Shown here in pieces: positions 318 to 57,771 of a stretch of DNA of 64,000 bases. The stretch covers positions 1 to 64,000 of the forward strand of contig WQWU01000004.1 of NCBI GenBank assembly GCA_009785215.1, read 5' to 3'. The notes under the pieces were generated by a model. The model was given only the letters and a program-made list of their open reading frames with translations, had not been told where the DNA came from and did no database searches. Numbering within the stretch: position 1 is the stretch's first letter; each line of letters opens with the position of its first letter. This DNA comes from Treponema sp. (lineage in GTDB: Bacteria; Spirochaetota; Spirochaetia; Treponematales; Breznakiellaceae). The translations under genes and the position numbers were made by a program.

Positions 318-326
318 TGATTATTT

Positions 327-527
327 TTACTCCATCTCTTCGCAGAACAATGAAAAAACATAGTTTGCACTTTGTCCGTAAAGACCTGTATTGTCATCGG
401 AGTAGCATTCCCCGATATGCGATTCATAAAACATTTTTAGAGCTTCGTTTTCTGAGCAGTTAAAATTTTCCATAATAAGCGGAATTATTGTTTTTAATGT
501 TGCTGCTCTTATTGTTCCATGCCCCAT
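327..527 (-). CDS. small DUF3791-like protein, possible antitoxin
   Basis: 66-residue acidic protein, third gene of a tight operon (1209 down to 327). Its ATG lies 2 bp past the stop of the DUF3990 gene. The helical stretch SENEALKMFYESHIGE followed by DDNTGLYGQS resembles the small proteins that accompany DUF3990 genes (DUF3791-type); this is recalled from family patterns, not searched. Small size, acidity and coupling to a putative ADP-ribosyltransferase-fold protein suggest an antitoxin or accessory role, which is inference. Confidence 0.65.
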   Translation of the reverse strand: MGHGTIRAATLKTIIPLIMENFNCSENEALKMFYESHIGECYSDDNTGLYGQSANYVFSLFCEEME

Positions 528-529
528 AA

Positions 530-1012
530 TTATTCCAAATTGACAGATTCTTTAAAAGTTAAAAATTCCAAAGATTTACCGCTGCAAAAACAATATTGAT
601 TATTGGCGGGCATGAAAGCTAATTTTTGCAAGGCAAAATCATGAGGCATAAGACCATTTACCACAGCCTGTACAGTTTCGCCGACATCGTCGTTTGCTAT
701 TTTTCCGTATACAATATCAAAGCCGTGTTTAAACTGCATATCTTTTCTGCAGTTTATTATTAATTCTAACCATTCAATTCCATAATCATTAAACATTTTA
801 AACTTTAAAGTTTGCAGCGCTTTTTCTGAATCAAATTCATACTTATTCAAAACGGCTGTTTTCTTTCTTATCCGGCTTTGTCTAATTGCCCATTTTTCTG
901 CCTGCTCCTGAATATCTGTGCAATAAAAACCTGTTCCAAAATCACGGCTTGATAATGTTGGGCGTATATCGGGTTTTTCTATAATATCTGTGCCGCCATG
1001 AAACACTATCAT
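530..1012 (-). CDS. DUF3990 family protein, putative ADP-ribosyltransferase-like toxin
   Basis: 160 residues, about the full length of DUF3990 proteins. It shows the family landmarks: FHGGT at residues 4-8, RDFGTGFYCT near residues 23-32, HGFDIVYGKIANDD in the middle and NNQYCFCSGKSLEFL near the end. The order H, then GFY, then Q fits the H-Y-[E/D/Q] triad of ADP-ribosyltransferase folds, to which I believe DUF3990 is related. No signal peptide, so cytoplasmic. Its ATG overlaps the stop of the upstream DUF3791 gene (TAATG), so translation is probably coupled. A toxin role fits the flanking small genes but is untested. Confidence 0.75.
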   Translation of the reverse strand: MIVFHGGTDIIEKPDIRPTLSSRDFGTGFYCTDIQEQAEKWAIRQSRIRKKTAVLNKYEFDSEKALQTLKFKMFNDYGIEWLELIINCRKDMQFKHGFDIVYGKIANDDVGETVQAVVNGLMPHDFALQKLAFMPANNQYCFCSGKSLEFLTFKESVNLE

Positions 1013-1209
1013 TATTTATTATTCTCCATTATTTGTTCTATATCATGCAGAACATAATCAAAACCGTGTCCGTGCAGGATATCGTAGTCTTCGTCAAGCA
1101 TTTTTAGAATGCCGTTTTTTTCGAATAGTGCGTATGCTTCACTGCTAAAAATGGATTTTCGTTCGGCATATAGTTCTATGCAAAATGTTTTAAAAGAAAG
1201 ACGGCTCAT
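1012..1209 (-). CDS. DUF3791 family protein, possible antitoxin
   Basis: 65 residues. The pattern FKTFCIELYAERKS...EAYALFEKNGILKMLDEDYDILHGHGFDYVLHDIE is typical of DUF3791, small helical proteins usually found beside DUF3990 genes. It is the first gene of the three-gene minus-strand operon. There is no Shine-Dalgarno sequence before the ATG; a TTGACT-16-TATACT promoter ends 6 nt upstream, predicting a leaderless mRNA. Antitoxin or regulator role is inferred from context. Confidence 0.75.
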   Translation of the reverse strand: MSRLSFKTFCIELYAERKSIFSSEAYALFEKNGILKMLDEDYDILHGHGFDYVLHDIEQIMENNK

Positions 1210-1215
1210 TATTAC

Positions 1216-1243
1216 AGTATATATCCGTCGATTTATTAGTCAA
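1216..1243 (-). promoter_or_regulatory. promoter of the DUF3791/DUF3990 operon (leaderless type)
   Basis: On the minus strand: -35 TTGACT (1238-1243), 16-bp spacer, -10 TATACT (1216-1221), then GTAATA and ATG at 1209. The predicted transcript starts at or next to the ATG. Confidence 0.7.
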
Positions 1244-1295
1244 GTAAAATTTATCTGTATTCCCCATGCGTGAAACTCTTCTATAAAAACTAAGC

Positions 1296-1327
1296 ACGTG
1301 AGACATCACGTACGTGATATCTCACGT
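1296..1327. promoter_or_regulatory. twin tandem operator-like palindromes upstream of GH3 gene
   Basis: Two abutting 16-bp sites share the form ACGTGA-N4-TCACGT: 1296-1311 with spacer GACA and 1312-1327 with spacer TATC. Together they make a 32-bp near-perfect palindrome with one mismatched pair. The block ends 1 bp before the -35 box at 1329, where an activator, or a repressor touching the -35, would bind. The regulator is not in this window. The half-site GTGA/TCAC recalls CRP sites, but the 4-bp gap differs from the 6-bp gap of CRP. Confidence 0.8.
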
Positions 1328-1328
1328 A

Positions 1329-1357
1329 TTGACCGCATGATAGTTCGCTCTTATAAT
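1329..1357 (+). promoter_or_regulatory. strong sigma70-type promoter of GH3 gene
   Basis: -35 TTGACC (1329-1334), 17-bp spacer, -10 TATAAT (1352-1357). The start point should be near 1364, leaving a leader of about 20 nt with AGGAG at 1374-1378. Confidence 0.8.
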
Positions 1358-1384
1358 ACTCTAATTACTTATCAGGAGCGAACC

Positions 1385-3487
1385 ATGAACCGTGAATCAA
1401 AAATAAAAGAAATGATTTCTAAAATGACGCTGGAAGAAAAAGTTTCCCAGCTGCTTTACAAAAGCCCGGCGATAGAACGCCTTGGCATTCCTGCATATAA
1501 CTGGTGGAACGAATGTCTGCATGGCGTTGCAAGAGCCGGTGTTGCGACTGTTTTTCCGCAGGCGATTGCGATGGCAGCTACTTTTGACGAAAACCTTGTT
1601 AAAGAAATCGCTGTTGCTATATCAGACGAAGCGCGAGCCAAACACAACGAAGCTGTAAAACAGGGAAACCGCGGCCAATACTGGGGGCTTACTTTCTGGA
1701 CACCAAACATCAATATATTCCGTGATCCAAGGTGGGGGCGCGGACAGGAAACCTACGGCGAAGACCCGTATTTAACAAGCCGTATCGGGCTTGCGCTGGT
1801 TAACGGCTTACAGGGCGATGATCCTGAAAACTTAAAAACAGCCGCTTGCGCCAAGCACTATGCCGTACATTCAGGCCCGGAAAAAGACCGCCATACTTTT
1901 AACGCGATTGTTACAAAAAAAGATCTGTGGGAAACATATCTTCCTGCTTTTAAGGCGCTGGTAGAAGGCGGAGTAGAATCCGTAATGGGCGCTTATAACC
2001 GCACTTTAGACGAACCCTGCTGTGCAAGTAATCTTCTTATAAAAGAAATCCTTCGCGGCAAATGGAATTTTAAGGGACACTTTGTTTCCGACTGCTGGGC
2101 AATCCGCGATTTTCATGAGTACCATAAAGTAACCAAAGCGCCGGAAGAGTCCGCCGCAATGGCTTTAAACGCAGGCTGTGATTTAAACTGCGGCTGTACT
2201 TATCCGTTTTTGACAGTAGCGCACAAACAGGGTCTTGTTTCAGAAGAAACAATTAATACATCGCTTGAACGTCTGCTTCGCACACGTTTTAGACTTGGAA
2301 TGTTCGATAAACCCGGCTCCGGAAAATACGGTAAACTAGATCGAAAAATAATTAACTGCGAAAAACACAAAAAACTCGCTCTTAAAGCGGCGCACAAATC
2401 CATCGTTCTTCTTAAAAACGACAACAACCTTTTACCGCTGGATTCCAGCCCCAAAAATATGGTTGTTGTAGGGCCAGCCGCCGCCAATACTCATGCGCTC
2501 CTTGGCAATTATTACGGCATAAGCTCGCATTTTACTACTATAATAGAAGGACTTGCCGAAAAAGTGAGCGGAATGTTCGGTATTAATCTGGATTACCGCC
2601 AGGGCTGTTTGATGTACAGCGAAAACAGCAAATCGCTGGTTCATTACGGCGAGGCAAATGTAACAGATGTTGTCATTGCTGTTATGGGATTGGACGGCGC
2701 AATGGAAGGCGAAGAAGGCGATGCGATTGCTTCGGATTCAAACGGCGATCGTAATACGATAGAGATTCCGGCATGGCAGTTAAAGTATCTGCAGGCAGTA
2801 AAAAATGCCGGCAAAAAAATCATTCTGGTGCTTACAGGCGGCAGTGCAATTGCCTATCCCGAAGAACTTGTTGACGCTGTCATTTTTGCCTGGTATCCGG
2901 GTGAATCGGGCGGCAAAGCTGTTGCGGACATTATCTTCGGCGATGTAGTTCCTTCAGGAAAATTGCCTGTTACTTTCTATGCTTCAACATCCCAGCTTCC
3001 TGCATACGAAGATTATTCCATGAAAGGGCGCACCTATCGCTACATGACAGAAAAACCTCTGTACCCCTTTGGTTTTGGGCTTTCATATACAAGTTTCCGG
3101 TTCGATTCCATCAGTCTTTCAGCCTCTGAAATATCCGCTGGGAGCGAATTAAAAGCCGCTGTGAGTGTGACTAATACCGGAAAAAGAGACGCCGATGAAG
3201 TTGTACAGCTTTATATAACAAAGGACGGCCGCTCCGATAATGAACCGCTTTCTTCATTAAGGGGTTTCCAGCGGGTAACAATCAAGGCTGGAAAGAGTAT
3301 AAAGGTTGATTTTACGCTTCCGGCATCGGCATTTGAAACCGTTGATGCAGACGGCAATTCCAGGCTGGTTCCCGGAACTTACACCGTAATTGCCGCGGAT
3401 GCCGCTCCTGTGCCATCGATATCCAGGTCTGCAGCGGCAGAAAAAGGCGCTCCAGAACCGGTTTCGGCCAAAATTGACATAAAATAA
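1385..3487 (+). CDS. glycoside hydrolase family 3 (beta-xylosidase/beta-glucosidase type)
   Basis: 700-residue enzyme of the GH3 family, which removes single sugars from the non-reducing end of oligosaccharides. The N-terminal barrel carries WWNECLHGVARAG, typical of the xylosidase branch, KHYAVHSGPEKDRH for substrate binding, and SDCWAI with the expected nucleophile Asp236. The alpha/beta sandwich domain follows, then PLYPFGFGLSYT and a C-terminal fibronectin III-like domain. There is no signal peptide, so it probably acts in the cytoplasm on imported oligosaccharides, which fits the ABC importer genes next to it. The start at 1385 is set by AGGAG 6 nt upstream; an earlier in-frame GTG at 1298 lies inside the palindrome and is unlikely. 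Exact substrate cannot be read from the sequence. Confidence 0.92.
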   Translation: MNRESKIKEMISKMTLEEKVSQLLYKSPAIERLGIPAYNWWNECLHGVARAGVATVFPQAIAMAATFDENLVKEIAVAISDEARAKHNEAVKQGNRGQYWGLTFWTPNINIFRDPRWGRGQETYGEDPYLTSRIGLALVNGLQGDDPENLKTAACAKHYAVHSGPEKDRHTFNAIVTKKDLWETYLPAFKALVEGGVESVMGAYNRTLDEPCCASNLLIKEILRGKWNFKGHFVSDCWAIRDFHEYHKVTKAPEESAAMALNAGCDLNCGCTYPFLTVAHKQGLVSEETINTSLERLLRTRFRLGMFDKPGSGKYGKLDRKIINCEKHKKLALKAAHKSIVLLKNDNNLLPLDSSPKNMVVVGPAAANTHALLGNYYGISSHFTTIIEGLAEKVSGMFGINLDYRQGCLMYSENSKSLVHYGEANVTDVVIAVMGLDGAMEGEEGDAIASDSNGDRNTIEIPAWQLKYLQAVKNAGKKIILVLTGGSAIAYPEELVDAVIFAWYPGESGGKAVADIIFGDVVPSGKLPVTFYASTSQLPAYEDYSMKGRTYRYMTEKPLYPFGFGLSYTSFRFDSISLSASEISAGSELKAAVSVTNTGKRDADEVVQLYITKDGRSDNEPLSSLRGFQRVTIKAGKSIKVDFTLPASAFETVDADGNSRLVPGTYTVIAADAAPVPSISRSAAAEKGAPEPVSAKIDIK

Positions 3488-3505
3488 GATTTTTTTAAAT
3501 ATGTA

Positions 3506-3534
3506 TTGATCATTTATTAATAATGTGTTAGCAT
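3506..3534 (+). promoter_or_regulatory. probable promoter of sugar ABC operon
   Basis: TTGATC (3506-3511), 17-bp spacer, TAGCAT (3529-3534). No copy of the upstream ACGTGA-N4-TCACGT operator is seen here, so this operon may be controlled separately from the GH3 gene. Confidence 0.5.
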
Positions 3535-3592
3535 AATCTTAATAAACTAAGACCCTTAAATGGCAGGGGAATTATTTTTTTGGAGGAAAAAA

Positions 3593-4912
3593 ATGAGAAA
3601 ATCACTTTTGCTATTATTAGCACTAGTAATCGTAGGTGGAGTATTATTTACTGGTTGTCCTGGCAGCGGCGGTGGTAATACTATCAATGTATGGAGCTTT
3701 ACAGACGAAGTACCGAATGCATTACTTAGATTTAAAGAAATGAATCCGGAATTCCCGTATGACTTCAACGTCACAATTATTGCAACTACAGAAGGCGCAT
3801 ATCAGCCTGCTCTTGACCAAGCCCTTGCTGGCGGAAGAAGAAGAGCTCCTGACATCTTCACAGCTGAAGCAGCTTTCGTGTTGAAATATACACAGGGTGA
3901 ATTTGCAAACTTTGCATTACCTTACAGTGAACTTGGCATTGATATTGATAATCAATTAAGAGCAGCTCAGATTGCTACTTATATCCATGAACTTGGCACA
4001 AGACCTACAGATAATCAGGTAGTTGGTCTTGCATTCCAGAACACAGGCAGCGGCTTTATCTATCGCCGTTCAATCGCCAGAGACGTTTTTGGAACAGATG
4101 ATCCTAACAGAATTGCAAATATTATCGGCCCAGGCTGGGATAAATATCTTGAAGCAGCCGCTGCTCTTAGAGCAAGAGGTTATTCAATTGCAGCCGGCGA
4201 AGGCGACATTTGGCAGGTTATGAGAAACACAGCTACACGTCCTTATGTTGTAGACGGCAGATTATACCTTGATCCAGCTCGCGAACAGTTCCTTGATGTT
4301 GCAAAATCATTATATGATAATGACTTTACAAACAGAGTTGGCGCATGGTCAGATGGCTGGTTTGCAGGCATGAGAGGCGCTGGCGACAGACAAGTATTCG
4401 GCTACCTTGGCCCAGCATGGCTCATTAACTATGTTATGGCTGGTAACTCAGGCGAAACATTCGGCGATTGGGCAGTTGCAGTACCTCCTGTAGCATTTTC
4501 ATGGGGCGGAACATGGGTTCTTGCTAACAACAGAGGAAATGCTGCTGTTAGAGACGGCGTAAGACAGGCTATTGAATGGCTTACACTTGATACATCTGAC
4601 ACAGGCTTCCAGTACTTATTTGCTAACGGCTTATTAGCTGAAGGCGCAGCAAAAGACGCAGTTGCTTCAGGTGCTGTTATGGCTAGATCAAACGGAACAC
4701 TTGACTTCCTCGGCGGACAGGATATGTTTGACGTATTCATTCCTGCAGGCGCAAATGCAAGAGGCGATTTCTTCTCAGCTTATGATGAAACAATCAGCCA
4801 ACTCTTTAACGACCAGGTTCAGTTATACTTAATTGGCGACAAAACCCGCGCACAGGCTATTGCTGACTGGAGACAGAACGTAGCAGATATTTTGGACATT
4901 TTACCACAATAA
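3593..4912 (+). CDS. ABC transporter sugar-binding lipoprotein
   Basis: 439 residues. A lipoprotein signal peptide runs from MRKSLLLLLALVIVGG to LFTGC, with the lipid-bearing Cys at residue 22, followed by a Gly/Ser linker. The rest matches the extracellular solute-binding protein family 1 (carbohydrate type), e.g. INVWSFTDEVPNALLRF and a C-terminal helical part. It would sit in the periplasm, anchored to the inner membrane, and pass sugar to the two permeases downstream. The start at 3593 follows GGAGG (3582-3586). The downstream terminator would let it be made in excess of the permeases. No ATPase gene is nearby, so a shared MsmK/UgpC-like ATPase elsewhere is likely. Confidence 0.9.
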   Translation: MRKSLLLLLALVIVGGVLFTGCPGSGGGNTINVWSFTDEVPNALLRFKEMNPEFPYDFNVTIIATTEGAYQPALDQALAGGRRRAPDIFTAEAAFVLKYTQGEFANFALPYSELGIDIDNQLRAAQIATYIHELGTRPTDNQVVGLAFQNTGSGFIYRRSIARDVFGTDDPNRIANIIGPGWDKYLEAAAALRARGYSIAAGEGDIWQVMRNTATRPYVVDGRLYLDPAREQFLDVAKSLYDNDFTNRVGAWSDGWFAGMRGAGDRQVFGYLGPAWLINYVMAGNSGETFGDWAVAVPPVAFSWGGTWVLANNRGNAAVRDGVRQAIEWLTLDTSDTGFQYLFANGLLAEGAAKDAVASGAVMARSNGTLDFLGGQDMFDVFIPAGANARGDFFSAYDETISQLFNDQVQLYLIGDKTRAQAIADWRQNVADILDILPQ

Positions 4913-4924
4913 TCTAAAACGACG

Positions 4925-4963
4925 ATTAGGGGGCGGTTTTAAAACCTCCCCCTAATTTTTTTT
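4925..4963 (+). terminator. rho-independent terminator/attenuator between binding protein and permeases
   Basis: Stem arms ATTAGGGGG (4925-4933) and CCCCCTAAT (4948-4956) enclose GGTTTTAAAACC and are followed by a run of eight T (4956-4963). The gap to the permease gene is only 13 bp with no promoter seen, so it probably works by partial read-through, lowering permease expression relative to the binding protein. Confidence 0.85.
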
Positions 4964-4976
4964 AAGAGGGCGGATT

Positions 4977-5966
4977 ATGAAACAAACTCATGTTAGTTAT
5001 GCGAAATATGGTTATATTTTTTCTTTGCCATTTGTAATTACATTTCTTTTTTTTATGCTTTATCCGCTTATCTATACTATCGTTATTGGCTTTACCGATT
5101 TACGCGGAATCGGCAGAACCGACTGGAATTTTTTAGAAAAACCATTTGATAATTTCGTTTCTGTATTAAATAACAATACATTTAGAGTTTCTACAATAAA
5201 TACTTTTAAGATATGGTTTATAAATTTTATCCCGCAGTTGTTTCTTGCTTTGCTGCTTGCTGAATGGTTTACAAATCAAAGACATAGAATTAATGCGCAG
5301 GGTATTTTTAAAGTACTTTTCTTTATGCCTAATATTATTACTGCTGCTTCCATAGCGGTTTTATTTAATGTTTTATTTATGTTCCCCGAAGGCCCTATTC
5401 AGGATTTCCTGGTTATGCTGGGAAACCGCGGAGTAATTGATTTTCAAAAGGGTGAGTTTAACTTTTTAACTAACAGGACTGCGTCTCAGTTTATTGTTGC
5501 GTTTATCCAATTCTGGATGTGGTATGGCTATACCATGTTAATTTTAATATCAGGTATTTTGGGTTTAAATCCTTCTATGTATGAAGCAGCAGAAATTGAC
5601 GGAGCAACAAGCGTACAGCAGTTCTTTTTTATTACACTGCCGAACCTGCGCACAATTATGATTTTCGTTCTTGTTACAAGTATGGTTGGCGGTCTTAACA
5701 TGTTTGACATTCCAAGGCTTTTTAATAACGGTATGCCCGACAATGCCACAAGTACATTAAGCCTTTTTATATTTAATCAGGCCTATGCAGGCAGTTATTT
5801 GTTTAACCGCGCTGCAGCGGCAAGTATGATTGTTTTTATAATTATTGCAGTATTGTCTTCTGCTGTTTTCTTCCTCATGCGCGATAAAGATGCAATAAAG
5901 AGTAAAAAATATTTAAAGCAGGCTCAAAAGGAACTTAAACTTAAAAAAGCAGGAGGAACCCTATAA
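4977..5966 (+). CDS. sugar ABC transporter permease (MalF/UgpA type)
   Basis: 329 residues with about six membrane helices, the first at residues 12-35. The EAA loop reads YEAAEIDGATSVQQFFFITLPNL, the site that touches the ATPase. It forms the inner membrane channel with the next gene product; their genes overlap by one base (TAATG at 5964-5968). The start follows AGAGGG. The lysine-rich C-terminal tail is cytoplasmic. Confidence 0.9.
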   Translation: MKQTHVSYAKYGYIFSLPFVITFLFFMLYPLIYTIVIGFTDLRGIGRTDWNFLEKPFDNFVSVLNNNTFRVSTINTFKIWFINFIPQLFLALLLAEWFTNQRHRINAQGIFKVLFFMPNIITAASIAVLFNVLFMFPEGPIQDFLVMLGNRGVIDFQKGEFNFLTNRTASQFIVAFIQFWMWYGYTMLILISGILGLNPSMYEAAEIDGATSVQQFFFITLPNLRTIMIFVLVTSMVGGLNMFDIPRLFNNGMPDNATSTLSLFIFNQAYAGSYLFNRAAAASMIVFIIIAVLSSAVFFLMRDKDAIKSKKYLKQAQKELKLKKAGGTL

Positions 5967-6811
5967 TGTCAAATCAATATGGTAAATGGGGCGTTTTTAA
6001 GTTTATCGTTTATGCTTCGTGTATTTTTCTTGGTTTTTTAAGTGTATTTCCGTTTGTTGTAATGTTTATTAATGCTACCCGCAGTACCGATGAAATATGG
6101 CGGGAAAGTATATCGTTAATTCCTTCTACTCATTTATTAAGCAATTTTGGAGTATTTGCCGGAAAATCATATAATCCGTTAGTTGGTTTAATGAATTCCA
6201 TGATTATATCTGTTTCTACAACAATATGCGCTGTATACTTTTCTTCTCTTACTGCTTATGGATTGGTTGCATATAGCTGGAAACTGCGTCAGGCATTTTT
6301 TACATTTATACTTGTAATAATAATGATTCCGGCACAGGTAGTAAATATTGGTTTTTATCAGTTCATGCTTCAAATAGGTTTAACGAACAATTTCTTGCCT
6401 TTGATATTGCCTGCAATTGCGTCTCCTGCAATGGTATTCTTTATGCGTCAGTATTTAATGGCAACTTTATCGCTTGATATAGTTGATTCTGCGCGTATTG
6501 ACGGTGCAAAAGAATTCTTTACATTTAACAGGATTATCCTGCCAATGATGAAGCCGGCTATTGCGACACAGGCTATTTTCGTATTTGTCGGAAGCTGGAA
6601 TAACTTCTTCCTTCCTTTAATCTTTTTAACAGACAGCAGTTTATATACTATGCCGATTATGGTAAGTCTCCTTAGAGGTGATATTTACAGAGTTCAGCTT
6701 GGCGCAATTTATTTAGGATTATCGCTTTCTGTATTACCGTTGTTTGTAATTTTCTTCTCATTGTCTAAATACATCATTGCAGGCGTTCAGCTTGGCGGTG
6801 TTAAAGAGTAA
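5966..6811 (+). CDS. sugar ABC transporter permease (MalG/UgpE type)
   Basis: 281 residues, six predicted membrane helices, and the EAA motif in DSARIDGAKEFFTFNRIILPM. It is the partner of the preceding permease. AGGAGG at 5951-5956 serves as ribosome binding site. Its last 11 bp overlap the end of recQ on the opposite strand, so no separate terminator can lie between the two convergent genes. Confidence 0.9.
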   Translation: MSNQYGKWGVFKFIVYASCIFLGFLSVFPFVVMFINATRSTDEIWRESISLIPSTHLLSNFGVFAGKSYNPLVGLMNSMIISVSTTICAVYFSSLTAYGLVAYSWKLRQAFFTFILVIIMIPAQVVNIGFYQFMLQIGLTNNFLPLILPAIASPAMVFFMRQYLMATLSLDIVDSARIDGAKEFFTFNRIILPMMKPAIATQAIFVFVGSWNNFFLPLIFLTDSSLYTMPIMVSLLRGDIYRVQLGAIYLGLSLSVLPLFVIFFSLSKYIIAGVQLGGVKE

Positions 6812-55746: not shown

Positions 55747-56529
55747 TTATTTTCGACTTCCACCACCTTCACTATTTTCTGTAGGAACACCCTGTTGCTC
55801 ATCGTATTGTTTTAAAAATCCAATAGCAGAAAGCTTATTAAAATTATCATTAAAATGCCATGCCTCACATATATTATTATTATAATTCATTCTTATTAAT
55901 AAATAATAATATTTATCATTTTTGCTATTGTATTTATATTTATCAATAATTATTTTATTATTAGTAGCATTTAATCCAGAAATATTTTCTAAATGAATAA
56001 TTTCAGTAATATTTTTTAATTTTTCTGCAATATTTCCGTCTTCTGTTTTATCATATTTTATATGTCCTATAGATTCAATTTTTTCAGGGTCTTGTTTATT
56101 AAATAATATTTCTTGCCAACTAATACCATATTTACTTTCTATTATGTTTCTTATATTTTGAATAGGTTTTAGTATTTTTGTATTTTTTGAAGATGTTAAT
56201 GCAAATAAAACATCATTATCATCTAAATCTATTCTTGAAGGATAACGCAATTTACTAATTATAACATTCATTTGATTACAATTTGTTAGTATATAATTAA
56301 AACTCTTATCATTCTTTTCACATAAAGCAATCAATTTTGAAAGATTATGATCGTAATCAAATTTTATATTATTATATCTTAAATATCCTTTTAAGTATTT
56401 TTCTACAGATTGAGAACAATGATAATATATTGCTTCTTTATTGGGTTTATATGCAGAATTAAGATATTCTGCTGATTTTAAGTCTTCATCTGCAATAAAT
56501 AACCATTCCGCTACTTCTTTAATATCCAT
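55747..56529 (-). CDS. HEPN domain protein with C-terminal extension
   Basis: 260 residues. Residues 1-130 are a HEPN domain: ADEDLKSAEYLN, YYHCSQSVEKYLKGYL, DYDHNLSKLIALC. The canonical RX4-6H RNase motif is not obvious. About 125 further residues (from WQEILFNKQDPEK), very rich in Asn, Lys and Ile, form an unrecognised domain. Overlaps the MNT gene by 11 bp. In known MNT/HEPN modules the HEPN protein is an RNA-cleaving toxin restrained by its partner; that role is inferred here. Base composition is much more AT-rich than in chromosomal neighbours. Confidence 0.82.
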   Translation of the reverse strand: MDIKEVAEWLFIADEDLKSAEYLNSAYKPNKEAIYYHCSQSVEKYLKGYLRYNNIKFDYDHNLSKLIALCEKNDKSFNYILTNCNQMNVIISKLRYPSRIDLDDNDVLFALTSSKNTKILKPIQNIRNIIESKYGISWQEILFNKQDPEKIESIGHIKYDKTEDGNIAEKLKNITEIIHLENISGLNATNNKIIIDKYKYNSKNDKYYYLLIRMNYNNNICEAWHFNDNFNKLSAIGFLKQYDEQQGVPTENSEGGGSRK

Positions 56530-56848
56530 ATATTAATATTCCTTTTTCACTTATAGTTTTTTCAAATGAATGATATTTTTTATATTCTATAAATTTTTTT
56601 TCTTTAATAATAAACAAATCTGCTGTAAATATTTGATAATTATATAAATAATTTGCTATTTTTCCCATTGTCAATGTAATTTTTTTATCAAATGTATCTG
56701 GAACAACAATATATATATCAATATCACTTTTTTCTGTTGGTTTTCCATAGGCGTAAGAGCCAAAAAGATATATATATTTTGCTTGTACTGTATCGAGAAT
56801 TACCTTTTTTATAATTTCTAATTGTTCTGAAATATCATATTTTTTCAT
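56519..56848 (-). CDS. MNT-type nucleotidyltransferase (antitoxin candidate)
   Basis: 109 residues. The polymerase-beta-like motif is YLFGSYAYGKPTEKSDIDIY, i.e. GS-X10-DxD, intact. Minimal nucleotidyltransferases paired with HEPN proteins can AMPylate and silence the toxin in studied systems. It starts 2 bp after the transposase stop and overlaps the HEPN gene, so all three form one transcript. Confidence 0.87.
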   Translation of the reverse strand: MKKYDISEQLEIIKKVILDTVQAKYIYLFGSYAYGKPTEKSDIDIYIVVPDTFDKKITLTMGKIANYLYNYQIFTADLFIIKEKKFIEYKKYHSFEKTISEKGILIYGY

Positions 56849-56850
56849 AA

Positions 56851-57771
56851 TTAAGCTCCTTTTCTTTCAGCAATAGACTTATAAATAGTAGGTTTTATTT
56901 CTGCGGCCTGTTCTATAAGTCTATAAAACAACTTTCCCCTGCTTGCTGATGTTCTCCTATTAAACCTGAAAGTATATTCATCAAGATAATAAGGCATGTG
57001 TTGATCTGATATAGAACCCTGTAAAGTTCCCATAATCCATCTTTTAAGTAATGATATAACTAAATGAACATTTGGCAATATTTTTTCATCATCTTCATTG
57101 CTTTTTTTATCAGATATTTTATGTTTATATCCAATTTCTTTAATTTTGCTATATCCTCTCCATCCATCTGTAATTATTGTAGACCCTTTTTCAACAGAAT
57201 TTTCAATAAACATTTCAAGATTTTCAGAAGAAGCATCAGATATTAAACCCATTCTTACTCTACCTATTTTTTTACCATCCATTTCTACAGCAATAATTAC
57301 TAAAGTTTTATTTTCAGTACCCCTGCCTCTTTTGCCACCAGATTGTTTTCCGCCTATAAATGCCTCATCAACCTCTACAACACCTTTTAACTTATCCCTA
57401 TTTGGTCTTACCATAGCAATTCTTAACTTATGAAGCCAAAGCCAAGCGGTTTTATAACTCCCTATACCTAAAACTCTTTGTAAACCCAATGCGCTTGTGC
57501 CATTTTTCTGTGAAGTAATCCACCACATAGCTCTAAACCACATAGATAAAGGTTTATGGGAATTTTGAAAAATAGTGCCAGACATAAGGTTATATTTATT
57601 TCTGCATTTCTTACATCTTACAGAAATACCTTGTTCAAAACGGTATTCTATACAGCCACAATCTGCACATTTATAGCCGTCTTTGTACTTGAGATTAAAC
57701 AGATAATCCCTACAAGATTCTTCTGTTCCAAACTTCTTTTCAAATTCCATTAAATTCATTGGATACATCAT
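56851..57771 (-). CDS. IS1595 family transposase
   Basis: 306 residues, full length. N-terminal zinc ribbon (CADCGC and CKKC), then DDE-type core: VVEVDEAFIGG (first Asp), IITDGWRGYSKI (second Asp), and a late HxxxN/E region near NVHLVISLLKRWIMGTLQG. No frameshift or stop, so it may be active. Its start lies 47 bp inside the right inverted repeat. Confidence 0.92.
   Translation of the reverse strand: MMYPMNLMEFEKKFGTEESCRDYLFNLKYKDGYKCADCGCIEYRFEQGISVRCKKCRNKYNLMSGTIFQNSHKPLSMWFRAMWWITSQKNGTSALGLQRVLGIGSYKTAWLWLHKLRIAMVRPNRDKLKGVVEVDEAFIGGKQSGGKRGRGTENKTLVIIAVEMDGKKIGRVRMGLISDASSENLEMFIENSVEKGSTIITDGWRGYSKIKEIGYKHKISDKKSNEDDEKILPNVHLVISLLKRWIMGTLQGSISDQHMPYYLDEYTFRFNRRTSASRGKLFYRLIEQAAEIKPTIYKSIAERKGA

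Follow-up and report, generated by a model that had tools for sequence, protein, structure and literature searches.

The twin palindrome at the GH3 promoter

The window, the whole stretch of 64,000 nucleotides that was analysed, carries on the plus strand at 1385..3487 a gene for a GH3 glycoside hydrolase resembling beta-xylosidases and beta-glucosidases. Its start region consists of AGGAG at 1374-1378 and an ATG at 1385, and it is preceded by a sigma-70-type promoter, TTGACC-N17-TATAAT, at 1329..1357 (+), with TTGACC at 1329-1334 and TATAAT at 1352-1357. Upstream of this promoter lie two 16-bp palindromes on the plus strand, a distal one at 1296..1311 (ACGTGAGACATCACGT) and a proximal one at 1312..1327 (ACGTGATATCTCACGT), both of the form ACGTGA-N4-TCACGT. 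The two copies abut and form a 32-bp palindrome in which 15 of 16 positions are paired. A single A (1328) separates it from the TTGACC -35. This layout, described in the original prediction as twin sites 1 bp before a TTGACC-17-TATAAT promoter, was confirmed in the sequence, and the GH3 gene is the presumed target.

Sugar ABC transporter genes follow at 3488..6811 (+); they have a promoter region of their own, located in 3488-3592, and lack the site. The earlier statement that the downstream ABC operon lacks the site therefore holds, and relatives show that this operon has a separate promoter. The only other 32-bp palindrome of this quality in the window (15/16 or better) lies at 4925-4956, in the gap that separates the ABC binding-protein gene from the first permease gene. 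With a T run after it, this is an intrinsic-terminator-like hairpin, probably for uneven expression inside the ABC operon. On the other side of the twin palindrome, at 318..1250 on the minus strand, is a module of DUF3791, DUF3990 and a small ORF with its own promoter, TTGACT-N16-TATACT. It is absent from this locus in the nearest relative, and we treat it as context and not as part of the operator. At 55747-57771, farther along the window, a toxin-antitoxin-like pair of a HEPN-domain protein and a nucleotidyltransferase adjoins an IS1595-type transposase.

Rarity of the motif and its other sites in the genome

The assembly under study (G000) comprises 1.9 Mb in 54 contigs, is 75% complete and comes from an uncultured bacterium that its gene content suggests to be spirochaete-like. 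The exact motif ACGTGA-N4-TCACGT occurs twice in the window, and these two matches are the only ones in the assembly. None of 300 dinucleotide-preserving shuffles of the window sequence contained the exact motif or a 32-bp palindrome with at least 15 of 16 pairs. The twin arrangement is far above chance. Allowing up to two mismatches reveals no enrichment of the motif in the assembly (15 matches vs. 55 for the control). Thirteen places outside the window match with one or two mismatches, about 10 of them within long ORFs; the intergenic ones are a pair on contig C13 and a single site on contig C24.

The C13 match at C13:39123 is the only one-mismatch match in the assembly, and a second copy lies 25 bp upstream of it. 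These sites precede a PnrA/BMP-type nucleoside ABC operon that includes a nucleoside phosphorylase (pnrA below). The C24 site, CCGTGATATTTCACGG at C24:26634, has two mismatches and lies 3 bp before TTGTCA-N17-TACAAT, the promoter of a NuoE/NuoF/[FeFe]-hydrogenase operon. The same promoter is adjoined by an inverted repeat, TTAGTGTTCTGTAATATTC ... GAATATTACAGGACACTAA around approximately 110 bp (L010, ~1535-1645; G000:C24), which looks like a small mobile element. The shared core CGTGATRTYTYACG, which was refined after the sites had been seen, has exactly four exact matches in the assembly: one at C13, one at C24 and the two in the window, each of them located 3-15 bp upstream of a -35. The original prediction had proposed a genome search that could have revealed random scatter; the strong matches instead sit at promoters.

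The three promoters also share a regular geometry. Aligned on the -35, the half-sites start at -66 (GTGA), -58 (TCAC), -50 (GTGA) and -42 (TCAC) at GH3, at -84, -76, -68, -59, -51 and -43 at pnrA, and at -52 and -44 at the hydrogenase operon, giving four, six and two half-sites, respectively. The GTGA/TCAC half-sites are therefore spaced in steps of 8 bp, save for one 9-bp step at pnrA, and the half-site closest to the -35 starts at -42, -43 or -44 in every case. In the pnrA array, this closest half-site is in the opposite orientation. An operator-plus-promoter pattern with free spacing matches just these three promoters in the assembly. In four relatives, the same pattern gives six matches, five of which are within frames of at least 62 amino acids. 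As is typical of bacterial operators in general, the palindrome occupies a nearly fixed position at several promoters in the same genome.

That the palindromes are chance sequences with no function is improbable. No relative conserves them, and the missing enrichment at two mismatches would fit such an origin, but the exact motif is absent from all 300 shuffles, and all three strong loci sit at a -35. According to a rough estimate, not computed with a tool and assuming that the 15 bp preceding -35 elements make up about 0.3% of positions, the probability of finding both C13 and one of a dozen weaker matches there is approximately 1 in 10,000. Still less probable is a role as RNA, in which the palindrome would form a terminator hairpin for minus-strand transcription. 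The minus-strand fold does have a 15-bp stem and a T-rich tail, CTTAGTTTTTA (z = -6.1). However, the stem is A+T-rich, no minus-strand gene lies upstream to be ended (GH3 is on the plus strand), and the plus strand has no T run after the palindrome. The C13 and C24 sites also lack a T-rich tail, and the C24 site is only 16 bp long.

Comparison with relatives

The GH3 palindrome is absent from all 18 GH3 orthologues of the genus (76-93% identity). The promoter TTGACC-N17-TATAAT is also found before the orthologues in G022 and G019, and the other members of the genus have different -35 sequences. In the nearest relative, G008, the ORF that occupies 3-317 in the window leads straight into the GH3 promoter region. 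The stretch from 318 to approximately 1340, with the DUF3791-DUF3990 module and the palindrome, is missing there, and the -35 region is not alignable. The contigs of G000 (window position 1) and G008 (G008:C14:1) start at exactly the same base, which suggests that a repeat just upstream breaks both assemblies.

The pnrA promoter is mostly kept in about 20 homologues across the genus, none of which has the palindrome. Likewise, the hydrogenase promoter is mostly kept in 29 operon homologues, and none of these has the site. Outside G000, genus-wide matches to the core CGTGATRTYTYACG are only coding-sequence, IS-end or isolated near-matches; in four close relatives, the exact and one-mismatch matches inspected, a set that leaves out some one-mismatch sites, are in open frames of at least 100 amino acids. 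A search of 84,980 genomes for the twin pattern returned one match, in Cellulomonas, which is about the number expected by chance. The twin pattern had no match in viral contigs, and window 318-1400 had none in plasmids. As a separate candidate, ACGTATTGAC-N17-TANAAT was considered as a shared promoter class and rejected, as up to two mismatches gave no convincing set. Since the pnrA and hydrogenase promoters are mostly kept and the palindromes are absent in relatives, the palindromes appear on present data to be a feature of this species, set beside older promoters. The sites probably arose after the split from the sequenced relatives, and we infer gain here rather than loss elsewhere.

The missing segment in G008 bears on two other origins. 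In one, the palindrome is the operator of the DUF3791-DUF3990 module, arrived with it and controls the module instead of GH3. The module adjoins the palindrome, is divergent from GH3 and is missing at the G008 locus. This origin is nevertheless unlikely: five relatives of the module (69-75% identity) lack the palindrome and have their own promoter-like stretch or lie close behind another gene, and no such module is found near the C13 or C24 sites. Moreover, the palindrome is located about 53 bp upstream of the module -35 vs. 1 bp from that of GH3. Members of the DUF3791-DUF3990 family are present in 26 of the 40 genomes in the genus, frequently as several copies per genome and in changing neighbourhoods, and look like a mobile toxin-antitoxin-like unit.

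The other origin is an insertion sequence (IS), two copies of whose tip, joined tip to tip, would have been left beside the -35. A roughly 1.4-kb IS that encodes an integrase-core (rve) transposase and has doubled end motifs TCACGTAAAAACCTAACCAT and the right tip CGTGATGTCTCACGT is spread through the genus (copies L078 at G016:C39:2643-4009, L080, L081, L083 and L060). Its right end in genus mates, CGTGATGTCTCACGTAAAAACCTAACC, shares an identical 15-bp stretch with one half of the palindrome, and the absence of the neighbouring DUF3791/DUF3990 segment in G008 would agree with this origin. However, an IS terminus would go on to share sequence past its outermost 15 bp, into the IS interior, and here the identity ends after 15-16 bp and the interior AAAAAYCTAACC is missing on both sides. 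The IS end has no match in G000 at up to three mismatches, the G016 copy has a different left end, and the C24 promoter region is shorter in G000 than in G008, not longer. We regard this origin as unlikely too. The 15-bp likeness is plausibly a coincidence, because about a dozen near-matches exist genus-wide.

Candidate regulators

The symmetric lac operator, GTGA-GCGC-TCAC, has the same GTGA-N4-TCAC geometry as the sites described here, and a LacI-type regulator was among those originally proposed. LacI-family sites are even palindromes, mostly with a central CG, and about 20% of LacI-family operons have two or more sites upstream (PMC4052901). The even palindrome and the multiple sites are thus further points of likeness. 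In contrast, the centres of the sites found here are AC/AT-, TA/TC-, TG/TT- and TA/TT-like, and none has a central CG. In addition, the LacI DNA-binding domain (PF00356) has no match in G000 (75% complete), G008 (94%) or G022 (99%), in a search that was positive in nine of 14 control genomes. The proposal of a LacI-type regulator accordingly found no support.

The CRP/FNR site is TGTGA-N6-TCACA. It has the same GTGA/TCAC half-sites as the sites found here, the position near -44 resembles that of a class II activator site, and the candidate targets are sugar, nucleoside and energy genes. However, the GTGA-to-TCAC spacer is 4 bp, not 6 bp, at the window, C13 and C24 sites, and the CRP-type helix-turn-helix domain (PF13545) was not detected above the cut-off in G000, G008 and G022, in a search that was positive in all 14 controls. 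One weak match, L207, falls in a protein that does not resemble CRP. The original remark that the spacing does not fit CRP is supported. Both LacI and CRP appear unlikely as the regulator because neither family was detected in G000 or in two relatives, one of them 99% complete.

The met boxes of MetJ are arrays of half-sites with an 8-bp period, bound by ribbon-helix-helix repressors. Regular 8-bp steps and a variable number of units (two, four or six half-sites) are shared with them, whereas the sequence differs, neighbouring units point in alternating directions and a single step measures 9 bp. The original prediction had suggested looking for a regulator near the other matches. A subset of the neighbouring proteins was scanned at the C13 and C24 sites and in the window; none of them was recognised as a DNA-binding regulator, and those near the sites gave no GntR, ROK, TetR or ribbon-helix-helix domain. 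A literature search for a regulator of GTGA-N4-TCAC found none.

A candidate operator family of this lineage

We consider that the twin palindrome is a tandem candidate operator for a predicted dimeric DNA-binding regulator that recognises GTGA-N4-TCAC with the core CGTGATRTYTYACG, and give this reading a probability of roughly 60%. The site is most likely a recently evolved putative regulator site and is ordinary in kind. The reading draws on the four exact cores just upstream of a -35, the selectivity of the free-spacing pattern for three promoters, the near-constant distance of the closest half-site, the 8-bp steps, the intergenic position of the C13 pair and the C24 site, and the conservation of the pnrA and hydrogenase promoters across the genus. 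On the other side, three promoters are a small sample, taken from a 75% complete assembly with a core refined afterwards; the pnrA array has one reversed half-site and one 9-bp step; the GH3 promoter region and its G008 counterpart cannot be aligned; sites common to no relative leave no phylogenetic footprint; and the proteins scanned around the sites yielded no regulator.

At GH3, regulator dimers would bind at -44.5 and -60.5, where they would overlie both the upstream edge of the -35 and the stretch used by the alpha subunits of RNA polymerase. Since the promoter is near-consensus and the site covers this edge, repression is favoured at about 60:40 over activation through class-II-like sigma or alpha contacts. 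The layout does not by itself imply the cooperative, switch-like control originally expected from two adjacent dimers: on abutting 16-bp sites, the dimers are separated by about 1.5 helical turns and would lie on opposite faces of the helix. The proposed control of GH3 would not be limited to this gene, as the same core is present at the nucleoside transporter and hydrogenase operons and in none of the 18 GH3 orthologues. The same regulator may therefore act at the PnrA-type operon and the [FeFe]-hydrogenase operon. We infer the existence and identity of the regulator, the direction of control and the membership of the regulon.

A bolder version is tentative and rather doubtful. According to it, a regulator that is neither LacI nor CRP binds arrays of two, four or six GTGA half-sites in 8-bp steps, the nearest at a near-fixed distance from the -35, and a regulon linking xylan or glucan, nucleosides and hydrogen arose within one species while the promoters stayed conserved. 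If true, this would be a young regulon in which one species has put core promoters under shared new control, and it would allow the study of how operators arise beside existing -35 elements. The palindrome would also provide a bait for isolating the regulator from a lineage that seems to have neither LacI nor CRP.
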